The notes under the pieces are model-generated. The model saw nothing but the letters and a program-made list of their open reading frames with translations, was not told the DNA's origin and searched no databases. This document shows, piece by piece, positions 1-28,477 of a DNA stretch of 64,000 nucleotides. The translations under genes and the position numbers were made by a program. Source of the DNA: Buttiauxella sp. B2 (GTDB lineage Bacteria; Pseudomonadota; Gammaproteobacteria; Enterobacterales; Enterobacteriaceae); the NCBI RefSeq assembly GCF_006376615.1, contig NZ_VEXQ01000011.1, positions 1-64,000 on the forward strand. The letters are read 5' to 3'. The first letter of the stretch is position 1; every line of letters begins with the position of its first letter.

Positions 1-625
1 CCTAAATTCGCGTTAATTTTACTGACTGCTGCATTCCACAGCAAAACCCCGCCTTATACGCAGTTGTGCACAAAGTTATCCACAATCACATCGGTATTTT
101 CAACCGAGAGCCCTAAATGATGCACTAAGTTTAGTTAACATCACCCTTAAGGTAGCCCTACACACATTACCTGGCCTGTAGATAGACCCGTTTTAGTTCC
201 CTGCCCTTTATGAGATCCCGGCCAAAAAGGAATATCGTCTATATATAAAGGATAGATAATGTGAGTCTGTACCGCATCACGGGGTTTTACGTCGTTGTAG
301 TCGGGAGGCAACATCGAGTTTACCGGCCTTTACCACCCTTCTTTTCTTCTTTGTGTTCTCCCGTCGGCTTTATCTCTTCTATATATATGCATTCAGATCT
401 ACAGGGGTGACCCTGACCCCGAATCTGTTCCAATCATAATCAGGAGTAACCGTCTTCGTATACTGGCAACCCTATCCAACGAAAAGCGTTTACGAAATAC
501 AGGGCTGCCAAAAGGAAAATCGAATTGATGCCGTTTGAGCGGGCATCCCAATTGTGGGGACAGACACTGAAAGAAACATTCCTGGCCGGTCACAACGGTA
601 TTAAGTAATAAGACCCCCTCAGAAA
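1..625. other. Left flank without a recognised gene
   Basis: I recognise no complete gene here. A perfect DnaA-box consensus (TTATCCACA) lies at 76-84. A stop-free plus-strand frame runs from 450 to a TAA at 606-608, with an ATG at 528. Its 52 codons look protein-like (ending in the residues AGHNGIK), so it may be the 3' remnant of an island gene, but I cannot name it. The stretch ends at the outermost att-like repeat. Confidence 0.4.
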
Positions 626-660
626 TGAGGTCTATTTACATACATATGGTGCAAAGGCGA
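626..660. repeat. Distal att-like copy of the tRNA-Leu 3' end (site A)
   Basis: The 18 bases at 626-643 (TGAGGTCTATTTACATAC) are identical to 10510-10527 and 28372-28389. They are followed by ATGGTGC-AAAGGC, a degraded version of the tRNA-Leu 3' end. The upstream half of the terminator hairpin is also partly kept (agaccccctc). This is most simply the far attachment site of the island chain at the tRNA gene. The ychF remnant begins immediately inside it. Confidence 0.7.
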
Positions 661-1423
661 CCCACGTCTGGACAAGCTGGCTGGAATCGTAAAACCTCAG
701 CGCATTATGCCAACCACCATGGAATTCGTTGATATTGCAGTTCTGGTAAAAGGCGCGTCGAAAGACGAAGGCCTGGGCAACCAGTTCCTGACCAACATTC
801 GTGAAACCGAAGCTATCGGCCACGTGGTGCGCTGTTTCGAGAACGACAACATCATCCACGTGAATAATAAAGTGGACCCGGCTGATGACATCGACGTTAT
901 CAATACCGAGCTGGCGTTGTCCGACCTCGATACCTGCGAACGTGCGATTCACCGCGGACGGAAGAAAGCTAAAGACGGCGATAAAGACGCAAAAGCTGAA
1001 CTGATTGCGCTGGAAAAATGCCTGCCACAGCTTGAGAACGCTAGCATGCTGCGTTCGTTGGAGCTGGCCGAAGAAGACAAGGACACTATCAAATATCTGA
1101 ACTTCCTGGTGCTGAAACCAACCATGTACATCGCCAACGTTAACGAAGATGGTTATGAAAATAACCCATACCTCGATATCGAGCGTGAAATCACCGCAGC
1201 TGAAGGTTCCGTTGTGGTTACCGTCAGTGCTGCGGTTGAATCAGGCAGCGGGTAAATCCACACCGACTTCGAAAAAGGCTTCATCCGCGCACAAACTATC
1301 GCGTACAAAGACTTCATCACCTACAAGGGTGAGCAAGGCGCGAAAGAAGCCGGAAAGATGCGTGCTAAAGGCAAAGACTACATCGTTAAAGATGGCGATG
1401 TGATGAACTTCTTGTTCAACGTC
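656..1423 (+). pseudogene. ychF: ychF remnant (Obg-like ATPase), internally deleted
   Basis: Codons from about 656 match YchF, the ribosome-associated Obg-family ATPase of about 363 residues, starting near residue 50 (DPRLDKLAG). They continue through the conserved [17 protein letters not shown] and [13 protein letters not shown] segments. Frame 707-1252 then hits TAA at 1253. The reading resumes at once with the C-terminal TGS-domain end ([14 protein letters not shown] to [12 protein letters not shown], 1256-1423). About 85-90 residues in between are missing, the N-terminal P-loop region is absent and the native stop is lost. Several otherwise conserved residues differ, so this is a decayed extra copy, not the working gene, which should lie elsewhere in the chromosome. 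Confidence 0.88.
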
Positions 1424-3831: not shown

Positions 3832-5419
3832 GCTGGATCTCCTGGAGCTGATCGCAGGTGTAAACGCCGTTCACCAGACGCATGATCCCCAGAGGGTTTC
3901 CATCCTGCAACGCCTCTGGCAGCAAGTGCTGAGGATAGTTTTGGTAACAAACTGGGCGCAGGTAGCGATCGATTGCCAGCGTGCCTACCGAACTACCACG
4001 AGAGTCAGATGTCGCAGGATAAGGTCCGCCATGTACCATGGCATCACAAACTTCCACCCCGGTAGGATAGCCATTTAGCAACAGACGTCCGGCTTTTTGC
4101 TCCAGTACCGGCACCAAAGTAGAGAATTGCTGTAAGTCCTCCGGCTCGGCAATCAGCGTAGCGGTGAGTTGCCCGCGCAGCCCTCGTAGAGTTTGCAGTA
4201 ATTGTTCAGCATCCTGCACTTCTATCACCACAGTAACTGGACCAAAGACTTCTTCTTGTAATAGCGCATCACCCTCAATCAGCAATTGAGCTTCAGCCTG
4301 AAACAGCTGCGGGCTAGCCTGTTTGCCGTTTTGCTCTTTGCCCGCCAGTTGGATAACTCCATCATGCTGGCGTAGCGCTGACAGACCTTTTTCATAACTG
4401 GCCAGCGTGCCCCGATTTAACATGGTTTGCGGCGGGCTGGCATCGATTCTGTCTTTCAACGTCTGCATAAATGCACTGAATGCCACAGAGCGAATGCCGA
4501 TAATCATGCCGGGATTAGTGCAAAACTGCCCACAACCTGCGGTCACAGAATCAGTTAGCTCACCAGCAATTTGCTCCCCACGCTGGATTAACGCCTGTGG
4601 CAATAAAATTACCGGATTGATGCTGCTCATTTCGGCAAATACCGGAATGGGATGTGGGCGTGCAGCGGCCATGTCGCAGATAGCACGACCGCCTTTTAAA
4701 GAGCCGGTAAAGCCTACGGCCTGTATAGCCGGATGTTTAACCACGACCGCGCCAATATCCTGGCCATAGATCATATTAAATACACCAGCAGGCATACCGC
4801 ATTTATCGGCGGCACGAAGAATGGCATCAGCTACATATTCTGCGGTGGCCATATGGCCTGAATGAGCTTTCATCACAACCGTACAGCCAGCCGCCAGCGC
4901 CGATGCGGTATCGCCACCTGCGGTAGAAAAAGCCAACGGGAAGTTGCTGGCACCAAATACGGCAACTGGCCCTACTCCCATACGCACCTGGCGGAGATCA
5001 GGACGCGGTAAGGGCTTTCTTTTCGGTAGTGCGCAGTCAATGCGTGCGCCCAGGTAATCGCCACGGCGCAACACGGTAGCAAACAAACGCATCTGCCCGC
5101 TCGTACGCGCCCGCTCTCCCACAATACGTCCCTGCGGTAATGCAGTCTCGCGCATCACCAACTGGATAAAGTCGTCACCAAACGCATCAAGTTCATCAGC
5201 GATAGTTTCAAGAAATTCCGCTCGTTGCTCAGGAGACGTCAGCCGGTACTCGGCAAAAGCCGATTGAGCGCCGTCACAGGCCTGGTTAGCCTCACTTTCG
5301 GTTGCCTGGTAAAAAGAGAAAGGCAAGGCTTCCCCACTGTGCGCATCATAACTGGTCAGCGTTTGGTTACTTTGGCCGCTTCTCTTACCTTTGATGTAAT
5401 TTTTTCCAACAATGCTCAT
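3815..5419 (-). CDS. 2,5-dioxovalerate (2-oxoglutarate semialdehyde) dehydrogenase
   Basis: A 534-residue aldehyde dehydrogenase of the KGSADH type. Visible active-site elements are FGASNFPLAFS with Asn159, Lys184 (VVMKAHSGH), GFTGS at 236-240, the general base Glu263 (FAEMSS) and the nucleophile Cys300 (GCGQFCTNPG). The FAEMSSINPV signature is typical of 2-oxoglutarate-semialdehyde dehydrogenases. The reaction, oxidation to 2-oxoglutarate with NAD(P), is the final step of hydroxyproline (and of some sugar-acid) catabolism. It follows the epimerase gene by 63 bases and overlaps the next gene. The ATG at 5419 gives a normal family N terminus. Function is well supported by context. Confidence 0.9.
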   Translation of the reverse strand: MSIVGKNYIKGKRSGQSNQTLTSYDAHSGEALPFSFYQATESEANQACDGAQSAFAEYRLTSPEQRAEFLETIADELDAFGDDFIQLVMRETALPQGRIVGERARTSGQMRLFATVLRRGDYLGARIDCALPKRKPLPRPDLRQVRMGVGPVAVFGASNFPLAFSTAGGDTASALAAGCTVVMKAHSGHMATAEYVADAILRAADKCGMPAGVFNMIYGQDIGAVVVKHPAIQAVGFTGSLKGGRAICDMAAARPHPIPVFAEMSSINPVILLPQALIQRGEQIAGELTDSVTAGCGQFCTNPGMIIGIRSVAFSAFMQTLKDRIDASPPQTMLNRGTLASYEKGLSALRQHDGVIQLAGKEQNGKQASPQLFQAEAQLLIEGDALLQEEVFGPVTVVIEVQDAEQLLQTLRGLRGQLTATLIAEPEDLQQFSTLVPVLEQKAGRLLLNGYPTGVEVCDAMVHGGPYPATSDSRGSSVGTLAIDRYLRPVCYQNYPQHLLPEALQDGNPLGIMRLVNGVYTCDQLQEIQHETQY

Positions 5420-10361: not shown

Positions 10362-10548
10362 GGGTTCTGTGTGGGTACAAACATTATCGAACCAAGATAT
10401 ACCCGCATCAGTAAGTTGATGTAGATTGAATCAGGTTGACTTATGTTGACTGAAAAAGCGAGAGGAGCCTTACGGGGACTGGATTTTAGGCATAAAAAAA
10501 GACCTCAGTTGAGGTCTATTTACATACTGTTGGTGCGAAGGCCGGACT
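10362..10548. repeat. Internal att site (B) with duplicated integrase leader
   Basis: This block is a near-identical direct repeat of 28212-28408: the integrase upstream leader (GTGGGTACAAA at 10371-10381), the tRNA terminator hairpin and the tRNA-Leu 3' end (10531-10546). The right copy has about 12 extra bases from a doubled ACCCGCAT unit. Just after it, CTTGTACCCAC (10616-10626) mirrors the arm motif TTTGTACCCGC at 28258-28268, as expected for the left arm of the second island. It marks the border between two tandem islands. Confidence 0.85.
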
Positions 10549-10712: not shown

Positions 10713-11720
10713 TTAAGCAGGTAAGAATGTTTTCTTCAGAGGCACCAAAAGTTTGGTCTCAATATCAACTTGCTCGTAGTTTTCAATGAGCGCCCGAACG
10801 AGATCATCAAGCGTCCAAAGAGTCAGAGGAATCGTCGAGCGATCGGCCTCATAGCGAGCATCCTTACTAAAGCCGCCGGTACTGACATAAAGTCCGCGAT
10901 CATCTTTATGGCGACCACCAATAAAGCTACGAATCTGTTGGCTTCCCATCTGCTCTCTACGATGTTTCACCTCAACTATAATACGCGGATTTTCAAAACC
11001 AAATCCATCGGGCGAAGCAATAATATCTTTACCCCGGTCGGCCCCCGCTGGAGAAACCTGCGTTTTATATCCCATGCTGCGCAAGACTCCAGCAACAAGG
11101 TTCTGCATTTCGTCCCAATCGAGAGAGTTGATTCGATCTTTGATACCCTCAAACGCTAGCATTTCCATGTCACGAAGCGGATCAGAAACGACTTCATCTT
11201 CATCCATTGCATTTGGATTCTGAACAATAACATCTATGGTAGGTTTCTTATCCTGCAAAAGCTCTTCTAGCGCATATTCCGGGAGTTGGAAAACCGTCAG
11301 TGTGGAGCCCAGAGTATTTTTTGTAGCAACAGACAATCGGTCACGGTCGATTTCTTGAGTATTCCATTTAACCTGCCGAGCGATCCCCATTCCCTCTTCC
11401 ACCCATTCAGGATGATATTGGAAGTCTGATGTAACTTTGCCTAGCAGATAAGTACGGTTGGCTGGAGAATAGGTAATAACCCAATCACTCTTTTGGATTT
11501 CGTTCACAAAACGCCAGACCTGCGATGCTCCAGAACGGGCTGTTCCTAGCTTCGTTAAGGGGTCTGCTTCCTGGTATAAAGCGAGCAACTGGGATCGGGA
11601 CAGACCGGGTTTGACCAAAGGAGCCAGCTGAGGCCAACCGATTCCCACAATTTGTTTATCGCGGAAATCGTCATAGAGTTTGCCGCCGTCACCGCGAATC
11701 ATCCACATTCTGTTGCCCAT
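10713..11720 (-). CDS. Mrr-type restriction endonuclease
   Basis: A 335-residue protein whose C-terminal domain (about 195-315) has the Mrr-catalytic PD-(D/E)xK fold. Asp232 is in GADRGKDII, Glu250-x-Lys252 in IIVEVKHR, and Gln261/262 follow. The N-terminal part (WMIRGDGG, IVGIGWP, FVNEIQKSDWVITY, YLLGKV) resembles the PUA-like reader domains that often precede such nucleases. Mrr-family enzymes cut DNA carrying foreign modification, or are paired with other defence genes; here it stands alone at the left edge of island 2. Target specificity cannot be told from sequence. The ATG at 11720 has AAGGGACGGG upstream. Confidence 0.87.
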   Translation of the reverse strand: MGNRMWMIRGDGGKLYDDFRDKQIVGIGWPQLAPLVKPGLSRSQLLALYQEADPLTKLGTARSGASQVWRFVNEIQKSDWVITYSPANRTYLLGKVTSDFQYHPEWVEEGMGIARQVKWNTQEIDRDRLSVATKNTLGSTLTVFQLPEYALEELLQDKKPTIDVIVQNPNAMDEDEVVSDPLRDMEMLAFEGIKDRINSLDWDEMQNLVAGVLRSMGYKTQVSPAGADRGKDIIASPDGFGFENPRIIVEVKHRREQMGSQQIRSFIGGRHKDDRGLYVSTGGFSKDARYEADRSTIPLTLWTLDDLVRALIENYEQVDIETKLLVPLKKTFLPA

Positions 11721-11960: not shown

Positions 11961-12311
11961 CTATTCCCAATATTCAACGTGTTGCGTTAATACGATTTTC
12001 AATAAACCAGTTGCCTGTCGCGCCCGCAGAATATCGACAGCCCGCAGGTATGGGGACTGTTCTTGCCAGTTGAATCCCCTGCGATCAATACGAACCAGTT
12101 CGTACTTATCCACCAGAAAGTTAACGGCATCAGCCAGCGTAATACCAGCAGTGATATGTTCCTGAATAACAGTCTCATCACTGAATGGTGTGTCGTTCAG
12201 TGTCAGGCCATAGTGCTGTTCCAGCAGGCGTGTCAGTAACATTTGCCAGACAGACACGGGCGAAAGACATAGCTTCGCCGCCTGCGGAGTCGTTGCAGGT
12301 AGAGTTTTCAT
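11961..12311 (-). CDS. cbtA: CbtA (YeeV-family) toxin of a type IV toxin-antitoxin pair
   Basis: A 116-residue protein matching the CbtA/YeeV/YkfI family. It starts with [10 protein letters not shown] and contains [15 protein letters not shown], the [19 protein letters not shown] block and [11 protein letters not shown]. Family members bind FtsZ and MreB and block cell division and shape control. The partner antitoxin gene lies 20 bases upstream. A longer frame begins at 12374, but the ATG at 12311 agrees with the family and avoids overlap with the antitoxin gene. The C terminus ([10 protein letters not shown]) differs from the K-12 copies, as is usual in this family. Confidence 0.93.
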
Positions 12312-12331
12312 GTTTGCTCTCGTGAAATTAG

Positions 12332-12652
12332 TTAGCGTTGAGTGGGATAAACGGCGATGTATATGTAGCCGCAACTGCCAAGGGTATCGGCTTCACAGGT
12401 AAAACCGTTGTGGTACAGGGTGACACAGTTGGCATGGTGAGGATTCATTTCACCAGTGGTCAGCATCAACTCCATCTGGCTAATAAAATGCGGAAATGCC
12501 GCATCCAGCTTCAGACATTCGGCATTACTGAATTTGCCGGTCATACTGGCCCGGTCAACCAGATAGTGCAGCCGGTTGCCCTCCTGCACCAGACGTGCTC
12601 CCAGGTGCGGCGTGATATCCCGCTGCAGTCCCCATGTGACATTACTTCTCAT
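12332..12652 (-). CDS. cbeA: CbeA (YeeU-family) antitoxin
   Basis: A 106-residue protein matching YeeU/YfjZ/Yaf[58 protein letters not shown]. CbeA opposes CbtA indirectly by stabilising FtsZ and MreB polymers (type IV antitoxin). It lies directly before cbtA on minus, and its ATG overlaps the end of the upstream yeeT-like frame (GATGAG), as in the usual yeeS-yeeT-yeeU-yeeV order of CP4-type islands. Confidence 0.93.
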
Positions 12653-22733: not shown

Positions 22734-24164
22734 ATGGCTAAATTACCCGGTAAAACAACATACTCAGGTATCAGAAGAACTACTACCAGAAAATCAGGAT
22801 TCAAAAGCCATCCGGACAGCACTGGGGGTGAATATAAACGTGAGGAGGTAACTCCGTTTCTACTAGAAGCAGGCAAAACATTGACAGTGTGCTTTCGGTT
22901 CCCCGTTAGCGACGGACAGACATATGTTGGCTTTGGTGGCTTCTTCCAATGTGAAAATTTTGTTGAAATAGTTTTTCATAACTCCAACTCAGTAAAGAAT
23001 GAGTTTTCAAGGCGAACCTCAACTGATACGTCAAAATTTGGCTCAATGTGGAAACGTAATGGCATCTCAGAAAATGTAACTATTAGTTTTTATTCGAAAG
23101 TAGACACATACGTTGCTTTATATGGGTTGGAATGCGGTTTAATCTGGCATGATGCTTTCGATACAGCAATCGAAAATGATCAACTTGGATACCTCGATAA
23201 CATGTATTCAATTATGCCTGAAGCAGGTTTTTACACAAATGAGGGGGAGGTGATATTATCGTACGATGGCCATTTAAAACTGCACAATCACAATATTATT
23301 TTCCACCTTAAATCATGCAACCGCTGTGCTAGGTTTCTGCCCATTAATGTAAACGATGAACGAGAGCACTTATGTTTCTCGAACCATTGTGTCGCCAAGG
23401 CACCTTGCAGACATAAAGGGTTTGGTATAGTTACTGATGTTGATACTGGCGAGACAAAATTACTACATTTTGGATATCAACTTGAATGTCGTTTCTGTAA
23501 GAAATATTACGTAAATATGCCATTGAATTGGCAAAGGACGGCAGCGCAAATGAAGGAGGATGGTCAGCGGCGCAGAAATTTTGAATTACTAATTGCTGAA
23601 ATTTATCAACTATCACCACAGTTAAGCTATCGTGCAAAAACAGGTCGTGAATTACTAGATGACATATGGAATAGATTCAATGGTCATTGTTTTAATTGTA
23701 ATGATCCCTTAGAAAACAAACGAAAAATGCACCTTGATCATACACGCCCATTAGCTCTTTTATGGCCACTTGACGGAACTGCCACGGCTCTATGTGCAAC
23801 TTGCAATACTAGAAAACGTGACAGGCCACCATCACAATTCTATAATCCAGATCAGATCAGTCAGCTCTCGCAATTGACCGGTCTCTCTGTAGATGAACTC
23901 ATGGCTCCAGAGCCTAACCATGAAGTTATCACCGAAATACTCAATCGTTTAGATTGGTTGTACGAGGAGTTTCTAACAAAGCCTTCGTTACTCATGGAGC
24001 GTGACGGTAAAATTGCAGCTGAACTTGTTGTTAAGGCTTTGGATAAAGTATTGATACGCTCAAAAATAGTTAAATACAACTTTTCATTCGTTGATGAATA
24101 TAACCGTCGACGAGACAGACATATCACTTTCGATATCAATGAAAATACTGACATTATTGTTTAG
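22734..24164 (+). CDS. HNH endonuclease with zinc-binding Cys clusters, probable restriction enzyme
   Basis: A 476-residue protein. The C-terminal half has a typical HNH nuclease: C319-x2-C322, the H333-x-D335-H336 signature (MHLDHTRPL), C354-x2-C357 and Asn358. A middle region (195-255) holds further cysteines (CNRC, LCFSNHC, APCRHKG, CRFC) that look like one or two zinc fingers, a likely DNA-reading part. The first 190 residues look beta-rich and match nothing I know. It converges on a DNA methyltransferase gene 56 bases away, so it is most likely the nuclease of a restriction-modification pair. The recognition site is unknown. The DNA is AT-rich compared with the core genes. Confidence 0.8.
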   Translation: MAKLPGKTTYSGIRRTTTRKSGFKSHPDSTGGEYKREEVTPFLLEAGKTLTVCFRFPVSDGQTYVGFGGFFQCENFVEIVFHNSNSVKNEFSRRTSTDTSKFGSMWKRNGISENVTISFYSKVDTYVALYGLECGLIWHDAFDTAIENDQLGYLDNMYSIMPEAGFYTNEGEVILSYDGHLKLHNHNIIFHLKSCNRCARFLPINVNDEREHLCFSNHCVAKAPCRHKGFGIVTDVDTGETKLLHFGYQLECRFCKKYYVNMPLNWQRTAAQMKEDGQRRRNFELLIAEIYQLSPQLSYRAKTGRELLDDIWNRFNGHCFNCNDPLENKRKMHLDHTRPLALLWPLDGTATALCATCNTRKRDRPPSQFYNPDQISQLSQLTGLSVDELMAPEPNHEVITEILNRLDWLYEEFLTKPSLLMERDGKIAAELVVKALDKVLIRSKIVKYNFSFVDEYNRRRDRHITFDINENTDIIV

Positions 24165-24175
24165 CACATAAAAAA

Positions 24176-24199
24176 AGGGCAGATGCTATTTCTGCCCTT
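24176..24199. terminator. Bidirectional terminator between the convergent restriction and methylase genes
   Basis: Stem AAGGGCAGA/TCTGCCCTT, preceded by seven A and followed by T-rich sequence. It lies 12 bases past the HNH stop and about 20 bases from the methylase stop. Confidence 0.85.
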
Positions 24200-24220
24200 A
24201 CTCTGTCAAAAGCCAGTCGA

Positions 24221-26644
24221 TTATTTTCGCAATACTAAATATTGGTGACCAGTAACCCCTCCTTTGTCAGCGATACCGTGTTTTTCACAGTGCTCTACAG
24301 ACTCAGTAAAGATATCCACCACACTAAAGTATTTTTCTGCATAGGGTTTTAACGAATCCGCCATATTACATTTATCCGAATGCCCCAAATGGAATACAGC
24401 ATAACCACCAAACTTTAGCCTTTCATGACACTGACTAAATATAAAGTCATAAGCATCAAACGACTTTTTCTGAATCACTTCAACAAAGCTCTTTGGTTGA
24501 GTATCAAAATCGTTCCTAGTCCAACCACAAAACCAGTATCTCATCCAGTTAGTCATATAAAATTTTGTACTGTCAAAGAATGGAGGTGAAGTAATGATCG
24601 CATCTAAATCCTGTATTTCTTCTGGCCATTGAACAAGTATGTCAGCTTGATAGCAATTTCCCGGAACAAAGCTGTCGCCAACCTCAGTGTCCAAAGACTT
24701 ATTTACCTTAACCCACAGTTTTTCAATTAATTTTTTGTATACGAAATCGCCAGAAGGAGCATATGGTGTAATTGGATGACTTATACGGCTCAAAGCATAA
24801 GGTCTATTACCATGTAAAATATGCAACATACATGACATAACCAAAGCCCAATCGGCTGATTGAGCATCATGATTTTTGATAAAGAAATCTCGGGCGCAGA
24901 TTATTTCTTTGAATGTATTCTCATGAAAATACTCAGGAATAGTCTTATTGAATTTTACTTCAGTTGCATCTTTAATCGATTTCTTACTAGGTTGAGAGCT
25001 AGCAATATACTCCTCCAAAGAGTCAATTATTTCAGTGACCTTAGCACGACTTGGCCGCTTCATTTTGGCGTTACTAAGACTTGTTGCCAACAAACCAATA
25101 TCCATACCAAATGACTTGCGCCCATTTAGTGCAGCTTCAAAAGGAATGGTTCCTGACCCACTAAAAGGGTCGAGGATTCTGTCACCTACTTTAGAGAATG
25201 CTTCTACAAGTTTAAATGCTAATGCAGGTTTCATCTTCCCCTGGTATGAACAAACTGAGTGCAGAGCATTGCCCCAGTTACGCTTCGAATAAGGATGCTG
25301 AAGGTGTGGCAAAGACTCTTTGAACATATCCCACTTATGAGAAATATCACAACCTTGTATATCAACTCCAGCAACAGATATTTTATCGACATTAGTCTTT
25401 TCCAAGACAATTAATGACTGAGTTAAAGGGGCCCCTGATTTAGATTTCCTCCCCCTCAACCTTACAATATCAAGAGTTCCAAAACCAAAATCCTCTGCTA
25501 TTGCACTGAGGATGTCATGCGTAGGGACGTGTATACCGCCATAAAGTGAATCTCCAATATCAATAGCAGCAATACTGCCTGCTTTCATATGCTTGGAAAG
25601 CCCCTTAAATACAAGCCCCATTTCCTCAAAATATCCTGCAGCCATTTTAGGAATGCGTTCATCATATGCATTGGCTGCAAGTTCAGAAACAACAGTTTGG
25701 GCAGCTGGGTGGACAATATTACCTTTATTTTTTGTTACATCATTAATTCCCGAAGTCACAACATCATCTCGAAAACTGCGTAAACAATTAGCCGTAGTAA
25801 TAAACCCCATGTACCACAACTCTAACTTAGTATTCCTAAAGTAGTTCGTCCCATTCAAGTACGGTGGGCTTGTAATTACACCATCAACATTAAGTGGCTG
25901 CAATTCATGAAGTTGTTTTGCGTTGTGCGCGACTAGCTTTGCCTCGACTAAAGATGTTGGACAACGTAAGCAATCTTCTGCTAAAAGCATTAATTGCTCT
26001 TGAACTGATTTAATAAATTCAGGTAGGCCTTTCGCAAGTTCTTTAGTTGTTTTGAACCGAACATCGCCAGCACGTTTTAAGCGAGAGCAAATGATAAGTT
26101 TCGAGATAACAGCCACTTCAAGTGCTAACCCTACTACTGGCTTTTTAGATAATAACTCATCGTTCAAAGTTCTAATTTTCAGAAGCTTTAAAAACATGTC
26201 ATCATCAAAATATACGCTATCTTTGAATGCTATTGTATAATGTTCTCTCAACTCTTTTTTTTCACAAAAACTACCATACATATTTGGCAATTCTTTAGAT
26301 AGCTGCCTAATTTCATTGTAAAGATTAATTTTTTTATCTTTTGGCAAAGCTGCAATTGTTAACTTTGCATTAATAACTTTGCGCATTGCTGGGTTTATTT
26401 CACAATAAAATGTCTGAATATTTTGAAAACCAAGCGTCAAAGGAGTAGTTCCTACTCCAGCAAACGGTTCTAGGATACTTTTAGCTCTAGGCATATATGT
26501 ATCTAAAACAGAACGAACAAATTCAGATGAATAACCTTCAAGGTATGCATACCAATCATGAAGGAACTCCCCTTTACCACCAACATGGGTAACATCTTTG
26601 GGATCAACTTTTAAATCTAAAGGTAGGTAGTTAGACACAGACAT
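24221..26644 (-). CDS. Two-headed DNA methyltransferase (two N4/N6 amino-methylase domains)
   Basis: An 807-residue protein with two complete sets of methylase motifs. Half 1 has motif I EPFAGVGTT (59-67) and motif IV TSPPYLNG (258-265). Half 2 has motif I DPFSGSGT (492-499) and motif IV TSPPFFDS (685-692). (S)PPY/F motifs are used by N4-cytosine and N6-adenine methylases. Two heads in one chain are known for enzymes that protect asymmetric sites, each head modifying one strand (M.FokI is the classic case). With the convergent HNH nuclease it forms a likely type II/IIS-like system located beside the integrase, the usual cargo position of P4-like elements. The ATG at 26644 is used; RAGDVRFKTT may contribute to DNA contacts. 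Confidence 0.85.
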   Translation of the reverse strand: MSVSNYLPLDLKVDPKDVTHVGGKGEFLHDWYAYLEGYSSEFVRSVLDTYMPRAKSILEPFAGVGTTPLTLGFQNIQTFYCEINPAMRKVINAKLTIAALPKDKKINLYNEIRQLSKELPNMYGSFCEKKELREHYTIAFKDSVYFDDDMFLKLLKIRTLNDELLSKKPVVGLALEVAVISKLIICSRLKRAGDVRFKTTKELAKGLPEFIKSVQEQLMLLAEDCLRCPTSLVEAKLVAHNAKQLHELQPLNVDGVITSPPYLNGTNYFRNTKLELWYMGFITTANCLRSFRDDVVTSGINDVTKNKGNIVHPAAQTVVSELAANAYDERIPKMAAGYFEEMGLVFKGLSKHMKAGSIAAIDIGDSLYGGIHVPTHDILSAIAEDFGFGTLDIVRLRGRKSKSGAPLTQSLIVLEKTNVDKISVAGVDIQGCDISHKWDMFKESLPHLQHPYSKRNWGNALHSVCSYQGKMKPALAFKLVEAFSKVGDRILDPFSGSGTIPFEAALNGRKSFGMDIGLLATSLSNAKMKRPSRAKVTEIIDSLEEYIASSQPSKKSIKDATEVKFNKTIPEYFHENTFKEIICARDFFIKNHDAQSADWALVMSCMLHILHGNRPYALSRISHPITPYAPSGDFVYKKLIEKLWVKVNKSLDTEVGDSFVPGNCYQADILVQWPEEIQDLDAIITSPPFFDSTKFYMTNWMRYWFCGWTRNDFDTQPKSFVEVIQKKSFDAYDFIFSQCHERLKFGGYAVFHLGHSDKCNMADSLKPYAEKYFSVVDIFTESVEHCEKHGIADKGGVTGHQYLVLRK

Positions 26645-26725: not shown

Positions 26726-26747
26726 ATACTGTATTAATTAACAGTAT
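26726..26747. promoter_or_regulatory. Inverted repeat ATACTGT-N8-ACAGTAT upstream of the methylase
   Basis: Perfect 7-base arms around ATTAATTA, 82 bases before the methylase ATG. It could be an operator controlling methylase expression, as is common in restriction systems, although I find no controller (C) protein gene. The rest of 26645-26922 has no gene. Confidence 0.5.
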
Positions 26748-26922: not shown

Positions 26923-28194
26923 TTAACCCACATGTTTATGGGCATTAGTTTTTCCAAAATCAAACGGACTAATCCCCTTATCCCGATTCGTATCCAGATA
27001 ATCCGCCCACCACTGCAGCATTAGCCTGCGCTCCCCCAGATGCTCGGCCTTATGAATATAAGCAGCCCGCACAGAGTTACGTTCCTGGTGACTCATCTGT
27101 CGCTCTACCGCATCCTTCGACCATAGCCCCGACTCAATCAACGAACTACATGCCATCGTCCTAAAACCATGCCCGCAGACTTCAACTTTCGTATCATAGC
27201 CCATAACCCGCAAAGCCTTATTGACAGTGTTTTCACTCATCGGCTTACGTGGATCGTGATCACCAACGAAGATCAGCTCACGGTTTCCGCTCATACTTTT
27301 GATCTTTTCCAGAATGGCAAGAGCTTGACGCGATAAAGGAACAAGATGTGGAGTCTTCATCTTGGATCCACGCTGAGAGTGTTTAACGCCTTCCAGCGGT
27401 TCACGCTCTCCGGGAATCTTCCACATAGCCGTTTCAAAATCCACTTCTGTCCAGCGAGCAAAACGTAACTCGCTCGAACGGATGAAAACCAGTAACGTCA
27501 AATCCACAGCTAACCGCGTTAATGGTCTGCCGGTGTAGTTATCAATACGATGGAGTAACTCAGGAATGCGGTTGAGATCTAGCGCAGCGCGATGCTTTCG
27601 TTTAGCTGTTGCGATCGCACCAGCGATCTCTTGTGCAGGATTGTAATCAATTAAGCCGTTCTGTACCGCAAAGCGCATTATTGCCGTTGTTCGCTGTTGA
27701 AGACGCGCAGCCACTTCAAGGCGTCCTGACTTTTCCACTGCTTTAATTGGAACCAGTAAGTCACGAGTACCAATATCTTTGATATTTCGCTTCCCAACTG
27801 AAGCAAATAAATTGTCTTCCAGGCTTTTCAATACACGAGCACTATGCGATGCCGACCACTTCTGATTGCTGGCGTGCCAGTCTCTGGCTACCACTTCAAA
27901 AGTTATCGCTTCTTGCTCCTGCTCTACCTGAACGGCTTTCTTGTTCTCACTGGGATCAACGCCGTTAGCTAAAAGCTTACGAGCTTCATCACGCCGTGCC
28001 CTGGCATCAGCCAGCGACACTTCAGGGTATTTCCCTAAAGCCAGCATCTTTTCTTTACCGCCGAAGCGATAACGCAGCCGCCAATATTTCGAACCGTTCG
28101 GGTGAACAAGCAAAACCATGCCGTCACCATCCGTCAGCTTATAAGCTTTTTCTTCGGGCTTGGCTGTACGAACCTTCACATCACTCAGAGCCAT
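26923..28194 (-). CDS. P4-type tyrosine integrase
   Basis: A 423-residue tyrosine recombinase with the N-terminal DUF4102 arm-binding domain (MALSDVKVRTAKPEEKAYKL, LALGKYPEVSLADAR). Catalytic residues are Arg239 (FIRSSELRFARW), His342 and Arg345 (HGFRTMA), His369 (MSHQ) and Tyr379 (AAYIHKAEHL). It reads away from the tRNA-Leu gene, whose 3' end lies about 200 bases upstream, the standard layout for integration at a tRNA end. I chose the ATG at 28194, with GAAAGGATA upstream; a longer frame starts at 28230. It looks intact, so island 2 may still be mobile. Confidence 0.95.
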   Translation of the reverse strand: MALSDVKVRTAKPEEKAYKLTDGDGMVLLVHPNGSKYWRLRYRFGGKEKMLALGKYPEVSLADARARRDEARKLLANGVDPSENKKAVQVEQEQEAITFEVVARDWHASNQKWSASHSARVLKSLEDNLFASVGKRNIKDIGTRDLLVPIKAVEKSGRLEVAARLQQRTTAIMRFAVQNGLIDYNPAQEIAGAIATAKRKHRAALDLNRIPELLHRIDNYTGRPLTRLAVDLTLLVFIRSSELRFARWTEVDFETAMWKIPGEREPLEGVKHSQRGSKMKTPHLVPLSRQALAILEKIKSMSGNRELIFVGDHDPRKPMSENTVNKALRVMGYDTKVEVCGHGFRTMACSSLIESGLWSKDAVERQMSHQERNSVRAAYIHKAEHLGERRLMLQWWADYLDTNRDKGISPFDFGKTNAHKHVG

Positions 28195-28211
28195 GTTGAG
28201 TATCCTTTCAA

Positions 28212-28408
28212 GGGTTCTGTGTGGGTACAAACATTATCGAACCGGGATATACCCGCATTTGTACCCGCATCAGTAAGTTGATGTAGATTGAATCAGGTTG
28301 ACTTATGTTGACTGAAAAAGCGAGGTGAGCCTTGCGGAGACTGGATTTTAGGCATAAAAAAAGACCTCAATTGAGGTCTATTTACATACTAATGGTGCCG
28401 AAGGCCGG
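28212..28408. repeat. tRNA-proximal att site (C) and integrase leader
   Basis: This direct repeat partner of 10362-10548 contains arm-like motifs GTGGGTACAAA (28221-28231) and TTTGTACCCGC (28258-28268), the terminator palindrome and the tRNA-Leu 3' end (28393-28408). Its core TTGAGGTCTATTTACATAC (28371-28389) also occurs at 10509 and, without the first base, at 626. It forms the chromosomal border of the islands. Confidence 0.85.
28355..28379 (-). terminator. tRNA-Leu terminator
   Basis: The palindrome AGACCTCAATTGAGGTCT is followed on minus by a run of seven T. It lies 14 bases beyond the tRNA CCA end and was copied with the att repeats. Confidence 0.9.
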
Positions 28409-28477
28409 AATCGAACCGGCACGTATTTCTACGGTTGATTTTGAATCAACTGCGTCTACCGATTTCGCCACTTCGGC
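28393..28477 (-). tRNA. tRNA-Leu (CAA)
   Basis: An 85-base tRNA on minus: acceptor GCCGAAG/CTTCGGC, anticodon stem-loop GTTGATTCAAAATCAAC with anticodon CAA, a long variable arm, T loop GGTTCGATTCC and an encoded CCA (28393-28395). It resembles E. coli leuX, but in this location it stands before ygjR. It is the target of the islands to its left; island integration keeps the gene whole. Confidence 0.97.

Follow-up and report, generated by a model that had tools for sequence, protein, structure and literature searches.

The window, by which we mean the whole 64,000-nucleotide stretch of Buttiauxella sp. B2 DNA analysed here (positions 1 to 64,000 of contig NZ_VEXQ01000011.1), carries a convergent pair of genes, 56 bases apart, that encode an HNH nuclease and a two-headed DNA methyltransferase, and that very probably serve to cut foreign DNA and protect the cell's own, which is a known general kind of system. 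We consider it highly likely that the pair is a Type II restriction-modification system with an asymmetric site, in which each head of the fused methyltransferase would modify one strand. Both open reading frames are intact at the place given in a preliminary description of this DNA, with motifs I and IV in each half of the methyltransferase; the system is real and intact and probably works, its principle is ordinary, and what is new is the nuclease family. The gene pair, the intact motifs, the predicted folds and the conserved partnership are direct observations. The earlier proposal of a restriction-modification pair with two complete methyltransferase heads is supported, and, as likely, that of an asymmetric target.

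The partnership extends well beyond the window. We found 20 distinct loci encoding the nuclease (the window and 19 others), and in all 19 that could be judged, the window included, both methyltransferase heads lie within 0.7 kb of it; locus L022 was left out of this count because its contig ends inside the nuclease and the downstream side is not visible, and no methyltransferase match is present in the 4.9 kb upstream of that nuclease. Nuclease and methyltransferase are convergent in 18 of the 19 loci, the remaining one (L014) having all three genes in the same direction. The heads form one chain in 12 loci (window, L003, L007-L010, L013, L017-L020, L042) and two genes in six (L004, L011, L012, L014, L015, L016), where every methyltransferase gene has its own motif I followed by motif IV, and in L021 the N head is broken into two overlapping frames. 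Pairwise distances between nucleases correlate with those between heads (r 0.73 for the N head in 17 loci, 0.71 for the C head in 18), and 0 of 5000 permutations gave a value as high for either head. These results bear on the idea that the nuclease is a modification-dependent, Type IV-like enzyme and the neighbouring methyltransferase independent of it. McrA, according to a passage in PMC4081073, is an HNH nuclease that restricts modified DNA, and recognition of a modified base by the beta-rich domain of our nuclease is conceivable, but the invariable pairing with the heads and their correlated divergence make this idea very improbable.

Within the restriction-modification reading, an exchange of partners between nucleases and methyltransferases is suggested, and only suggested, by the trees: each tree rejects the grouping of the other protein (approximately unbiased (AU) test, p 2.9e-5 for the methyltransferase tree and p 0.03 for the nuclease tree), the groups having been named only after the trees were seen, and both groupings are unstarred without L014 and L016 (and, for the nuclease only, L021); long branches meet. 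Plasmids also carry more distant relatives of the methyltransferase. On a Pseudanabaena plasmid (L006:5887-9812), two adjacent distant head relatives are followed by a gene annotated as an HNH endonuclease, which looks unrelated and would equal the same layout with another nuclease; on an Erwinia aphidicola plasmid (L005:2664-5450), distant methyltransferase relatives are followed by a 292-amino acid protein that is possibly a candidate partner nuclease. Plasmid pBspH1 of Acinetobacter sp. NEB 394 (L025:4902-7503) has a single-head relative convergent with an unassigned gene and a helix-turn-helix (HTH) regulator.

Each head presents motif I, a central region and then motif IV (S/TPPY or F), which is the order of alpha-class N4-cytosine methyltransferases. 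The PADLOC Type II methylase family MTase_II (expectation value (E) 8.7e-55) spans residues 18-416, the N half; Pfam UPF0020 matches part of the C half (E 9.6e-14, residues 464-583), and Pfam N6_N4_Mtase (PF01555, E 6.7e-15) is placed at 254-517, from the N-head motif IV through the C-head motif I. In the predicted model (mean predicted local distance difference test score (pLDDT) 81, predicted template modelling score (pTM) 0.54), both halves align by structural comparison as complete S-adenosylmethionine methyltransferase folds, and motif IV is invariant, with TSPPY in 17/17 aligned N heads and TSPPF in 18/18 aligned C heads, which answers the earlier concern that one half might lack the remaining motifs. 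The Pfam and NCBIfam results show no family of ATPases or helicases for either protein, nor do the 25 of 51 PADLOC matches listed for the methyltransferase; a PHROG named DNA helicase matches the methyltransferase weakly (E 0.008) and over residues 478-541 only, which is the C-head motif I region.

The chemistry of the heads can be approached through the methyltransferase of D. radiodurans pCP1, to which the N head is 23% identical over 408 columns, and which we infer to be M.DraR1. M.DraR1 has been shown to be an alpha-class N4-cytosine methyltransferase with an SPPY motif, and S/DPPY/F is named as the hallmark of such enzymes (PMC6712171); it differs from the window protein in its palindromic CCGCGG site, single head and GIY-YIG partner nuclease (PMC10855626). 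Both heads probably modify N4 of cytosine. It is less probable, and on balance somewhat unlikely, that they modify different bases, one forming N6-methyladenine (m6A) and the other N4-methylcytosine (m4C), a combination for which HpyAII provides a precedent (a passage of PMC7494987) and which would suit two heads that share just 19.6% identity over 270 columns, but the invariance of TSPP(Y/F) in both heads is what the N4-cytosine hallmark predicts.

The conserved residues of the nuclease point to an HNH enzyme. D335 and H336 are kept in 21/21 nuclease sequences and N358 in 20/21, the exception being a contig end, while C319 and C322 are found in 21/21, C354 in 20/21, and C357 is replaced by His in L014; these are the Asp-His, Asn and Cys4 zinc-site residues by which HNH nucleases are recognized. 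D335, H336 and N358 are presumably catalytic, by analogy with other HNH enzymes. The Cys pairs C195/C198, C252/C255, C319/C322, C354/C357 and C219/C225 are present and largely conserved, in keeping with the zinc-type clusters previously noted, though the HNH domain, formerly placed at the C terminus, is central and precedes a helical tail. The window nuclease falls below every Pfam cut-off (Endonuclease_7, E 0.0032; HNH_5, E 0.44) and has no PADLOC or NCBIfam match at E up to 0.5; it matches an endonuclease VII PHROG at E 1.1e-7, and no PD-(D/E)XK domain is found among its Pfam and PADLOC results. When 20 aligned members of the family were compared with Pfam at an E limit of 0.01, HNH_5 matched two of them, Endonuclease_7 two and a phage family one. 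A Septu (PtuB) identity was set aside because the Type II restriction endonuclease model matches as weakly (5/20 nucleases) as the Septu models (one PtuB model 3/20 and another 1/20, best E 0.0013; PtuA 2/20), because the window nuclease itself has no match of this sort, and because the scanned neighbours contain no ATPase.

Among solved structures, a 20-row profile found no sequence match to the nuclease at E up to 10, and a single-sequence search gave two insignificant matches. Foldseek with the whole nuclease model returned no match with an E value of 0.001 or below, its weak beta rows being scattered (e.g., adhesins, cohesin, carbohydrate-binding modules), and VIA-align on the model covered mostly residues 264-393; the N-terminal beta domain has no convincing fold match with the whole nuclease model, rather than the domain alone, as the query. 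The family is rare and is absent as a description from the protein-family libraries searched here, in which neither gene matches a system of known specificity, and no publication on it was found among those listed in one open-access library. Family libraries can thus miss a likely restriction nuclease, since PADLOC recognizes the methyltransferase and not its partner. The pair would add an uncatalogued family of HNH restriction nucleases with a possibly new recognition domain, and is a possible source of new enzymes for site-specific cutting and m4C marking.

FokI-type systems have a two-headed methyltransferase for an asymmetric site, as is likely for the window pair, and differ in that the FokI cleavage domain is PD-(D/E)XK, in contrast to the HNH domain here. 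The preliminary description regarded this substitution as unusual, a view that does not hold, as MboII, MnlI, HpyAV, HpyAII and Eco31I make up an established HNH class. HpyAII (PMC7494987) and MboII (PMC4081073) are HNH Type IIS enzymes (GAAGA 8/7), and MnlI, HpyAV and Eco31I are listed as HNH restriction enzymes (PMC4081073, PMC2816704), with HphI also named beside Eco31I (PMC2816704). HpyAII and MboII resemble the window system in having an HNH nuclease and an asymmetric site, which is likely for the window system, and HpyAII in having two exocyclic methyltransferases, but in HpyAII these are separate proteins, an m6A enzyme and an m4C enzyme (PMC7494987). HpyAV has the asymmetric site CCTTC 6/5 (PMC4081073, PMC2816704), and its methyltransferases need to act on a C and an A (PMC2816704); the M1 and M2 of Eco31I are named apart. 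All of these nucleases are likened to ours by description and not by sequence. Paired methyltransferases are joined in one chain in some systems (PMC4081073), and MhoVII of Mycoplasma hominis has two fused methyltransferases for complementary non-palindromic motifs (PMC12898733), its heads differing from ours in being m6A enzymes of the YhdJ and D12 branches. Since HNH Type IIS enzymes and fused methyltransferases are both documented, the kind of system is already known, and the novelty lies in the nuclease family and possibly in its recognition domain.

The biochemistry, including the site, the position of the cut and the domain that reads the site, is deduced from these features. Binding of the nuclease to the unmethylated site would probably depend on the conserved N-terminal arm together with the beta domain, and the enzyme would cut with its single HNH active site, probably after transient dimerization and beside the site, as Type IIS enzymes do; the fused methyltransferase would protect host DNA, one strand per head, probably at N4 of cytosine on both. 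A Type IIT-like or cut-within-the-site arrangement, in which a homo- or heterodimer on the asymmetric site cuts inside or very near it, is unlikely in our estimation. Two Moraxellaceae carry the regulator-nuclease unit in duplicate: L012:4225-7383 and L015:4272-7383 have two tandem nuclease paralogs, ~50% identical, opposite two separate methyltransferase genes, with an HTH match before each copy (the second match partial), and both copies keep D-H-N, the second being without the C219-C225 loop. Type IIT systems, moreover, generally have two methyltransferases, in some joined in one chain (PMC4081073). Against this, the nuclease is single-copy in the whole genome of the window and in six of the eight whole genomes searched (two copies in the other two), the window has a single nuclease gene bearing a single HNH site, where Type IIT is defined by two different catalytic sites, and a second copy is not needed, because there is one copy in L011, which is closely related to L012 and L015.

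Control proteins precede the nuclease in some known restriction systems. In six of the 19 loci searched by tblastn with the HTH protein of a Psychrobacter plasmid, a regulator-like HTH gene stands in front of the nuclease (L004, L011, L012, L013, L015, L018; L042 was left out, and L007 offers only 86 upstream bases), and the same search found none before the window nuclease. Fused and split methyltransferases with one or two nucleases form a natural series for the evolution of asymmetric-site systems. It is rather doubtful that they represent, in addition, an undescribed HNH Type II lineage with N4-cytosine on both strands, a new beta reader domain, partners exchanged at one specificity, and a Moraxellaceae duplication leading to a heterodimeric enzyme.

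The shared terminator proposed earlier exists as a hairpin with a T tail, but it scores as terminator-like on the minus strand only, that of the methyltransferase; the gene intervals of L003 and L007 also contain hairpins, of other sequence. The perfect inverted repeat ahead of the methyltransferase is likewise present, while the weight given to it is unsupported: among 500 mononucleotide shuffles of this 220-bp stretch, 27% contain an arm of at least 7 with a gap of up to 14, and none was found in the corresponding stretches of L003 and L007, so that we reject an operator role and the repeat is probably not a feature. The methyltransferase start in L003 and L007 is preceded by GTACAGC-like direct repeats (TGTACAGCTCTT occurs twice in L003), and none is found in the 220 bp upstream of the window methyltransferase.

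Table 1. Coordinates of the gene pair, its protein domains and the island features in the window
Feature	Position	Strand	Remarks
Nuclease ORF	22734..24164	+	476 aa, intact; ORF list
Nuclease N-terminal arm	residues 1-22		conserved, low-confidence in model
Nuclease beta-rich domain	residues ~33-194		
Nuclease Cys4 group	C195, C198, C252, C255		helical part follows
Nuclease HNH domain	residues ~306-393		D335, H336, N358; C319, C322, C354, C357
Nuclease C-terminus	after HNH domain		helical tail
Hairpin with T tail	24175..24199	-	terminator-like for methyltransferase
Methyltransferase ORF	24221..26644	-	807 aa, intact; ORF list; PF01555, MTase_II
Methyltransferase N head	residues ~1-425		EPFAGVGTT 59-67, TSPPY 258-262
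Methyltransferase C head	residues ~426-807		DPFSGSGT 492-499, TSPPF 685-689
Inverted repeat	26726..26747		ATACTGT-8-ACAGTAT, 7-bp arms, upstream of methyltransferase
Tyrosine recombinase (island integrase)	26923..28230	-	PF00589, PF13356, PF22022
Direct repeat, 31 bp	28339..28369	+	island end beside tRNA-Leu(CAA)
Direct repeat, other 31-bp copy	10477..10507	+	exact; island far end
tRNA-Leu(CAA)	28393-28477		

The nuclease looks rare and scattered, in the manner of mobile restriction systems. Two of the 147 relatives examined have it, and one of these is the genome that the window comes from; it was also found in one of 369 genomes of the class (again its own), in three of 299 genomes from the family of genome G514, all already known, in one of 72,556 plasmid records, and by tblastn in none of 50,697 phage records. 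At least 10 loci occur in a collection of genome contigs, where a single sequence gave no match and a three-row alignment gave the 10, and at least seven in a collection of viral contigs, such pattern scans giving lower bounds. Among the named hosts are Aeromonas, Moraxellaceae, Halomonadaceae, Neisseriaceae and a member of the Actinomycetota whose chromosome is complete, and the strains with relatives include Aeromonas sanarellii LMG 24682 and Alkanindiges illinoisensis DSM 15370; a bin named Akkermansia, which may be misbinned, holds a copy close to that of Neisseriaceae. The G117 island (L003:1966-4241) starts inside a gene, presumably comM/yifB-like, next to a serine recombinase-like gene.

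In the window, the 31-bp repeats adjoining tRNA-Leu(CAA) delimit an island of ~17.9 kb, which also encodes CbtA/CbeA, RadC, an antirestriction protein and DUF932. The description of the pair as lying in a cargo slot beside the integrase is fair, because this slot carries defence-type genes in both E. coli elements read: the tRNA-Leu element of 2013C-3492, with a similar backbone by annotation, has a methylase-hypothetical-ATPase set adjoining the integrase, and in DETEC-P881 the position is taken by Type I restriction genes. A 6.1-kb query matched 679 of 5426 complete E. coli genomes and reached 80% coverage in none; the 40 matches listed, evenly stepped from best to weakest of 680 records, all start at query position 4750 or later, and thus lie to the right of the gene pair, the best covering 22% of the query. 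A gene for an Mrr-type restriction nuclease (window 10713-11720; PF04471, E 3.7e-24) lies within the island, right by its far end, and the CbtA toxin/CbeA antitoxin pair is found at 11961-12652.
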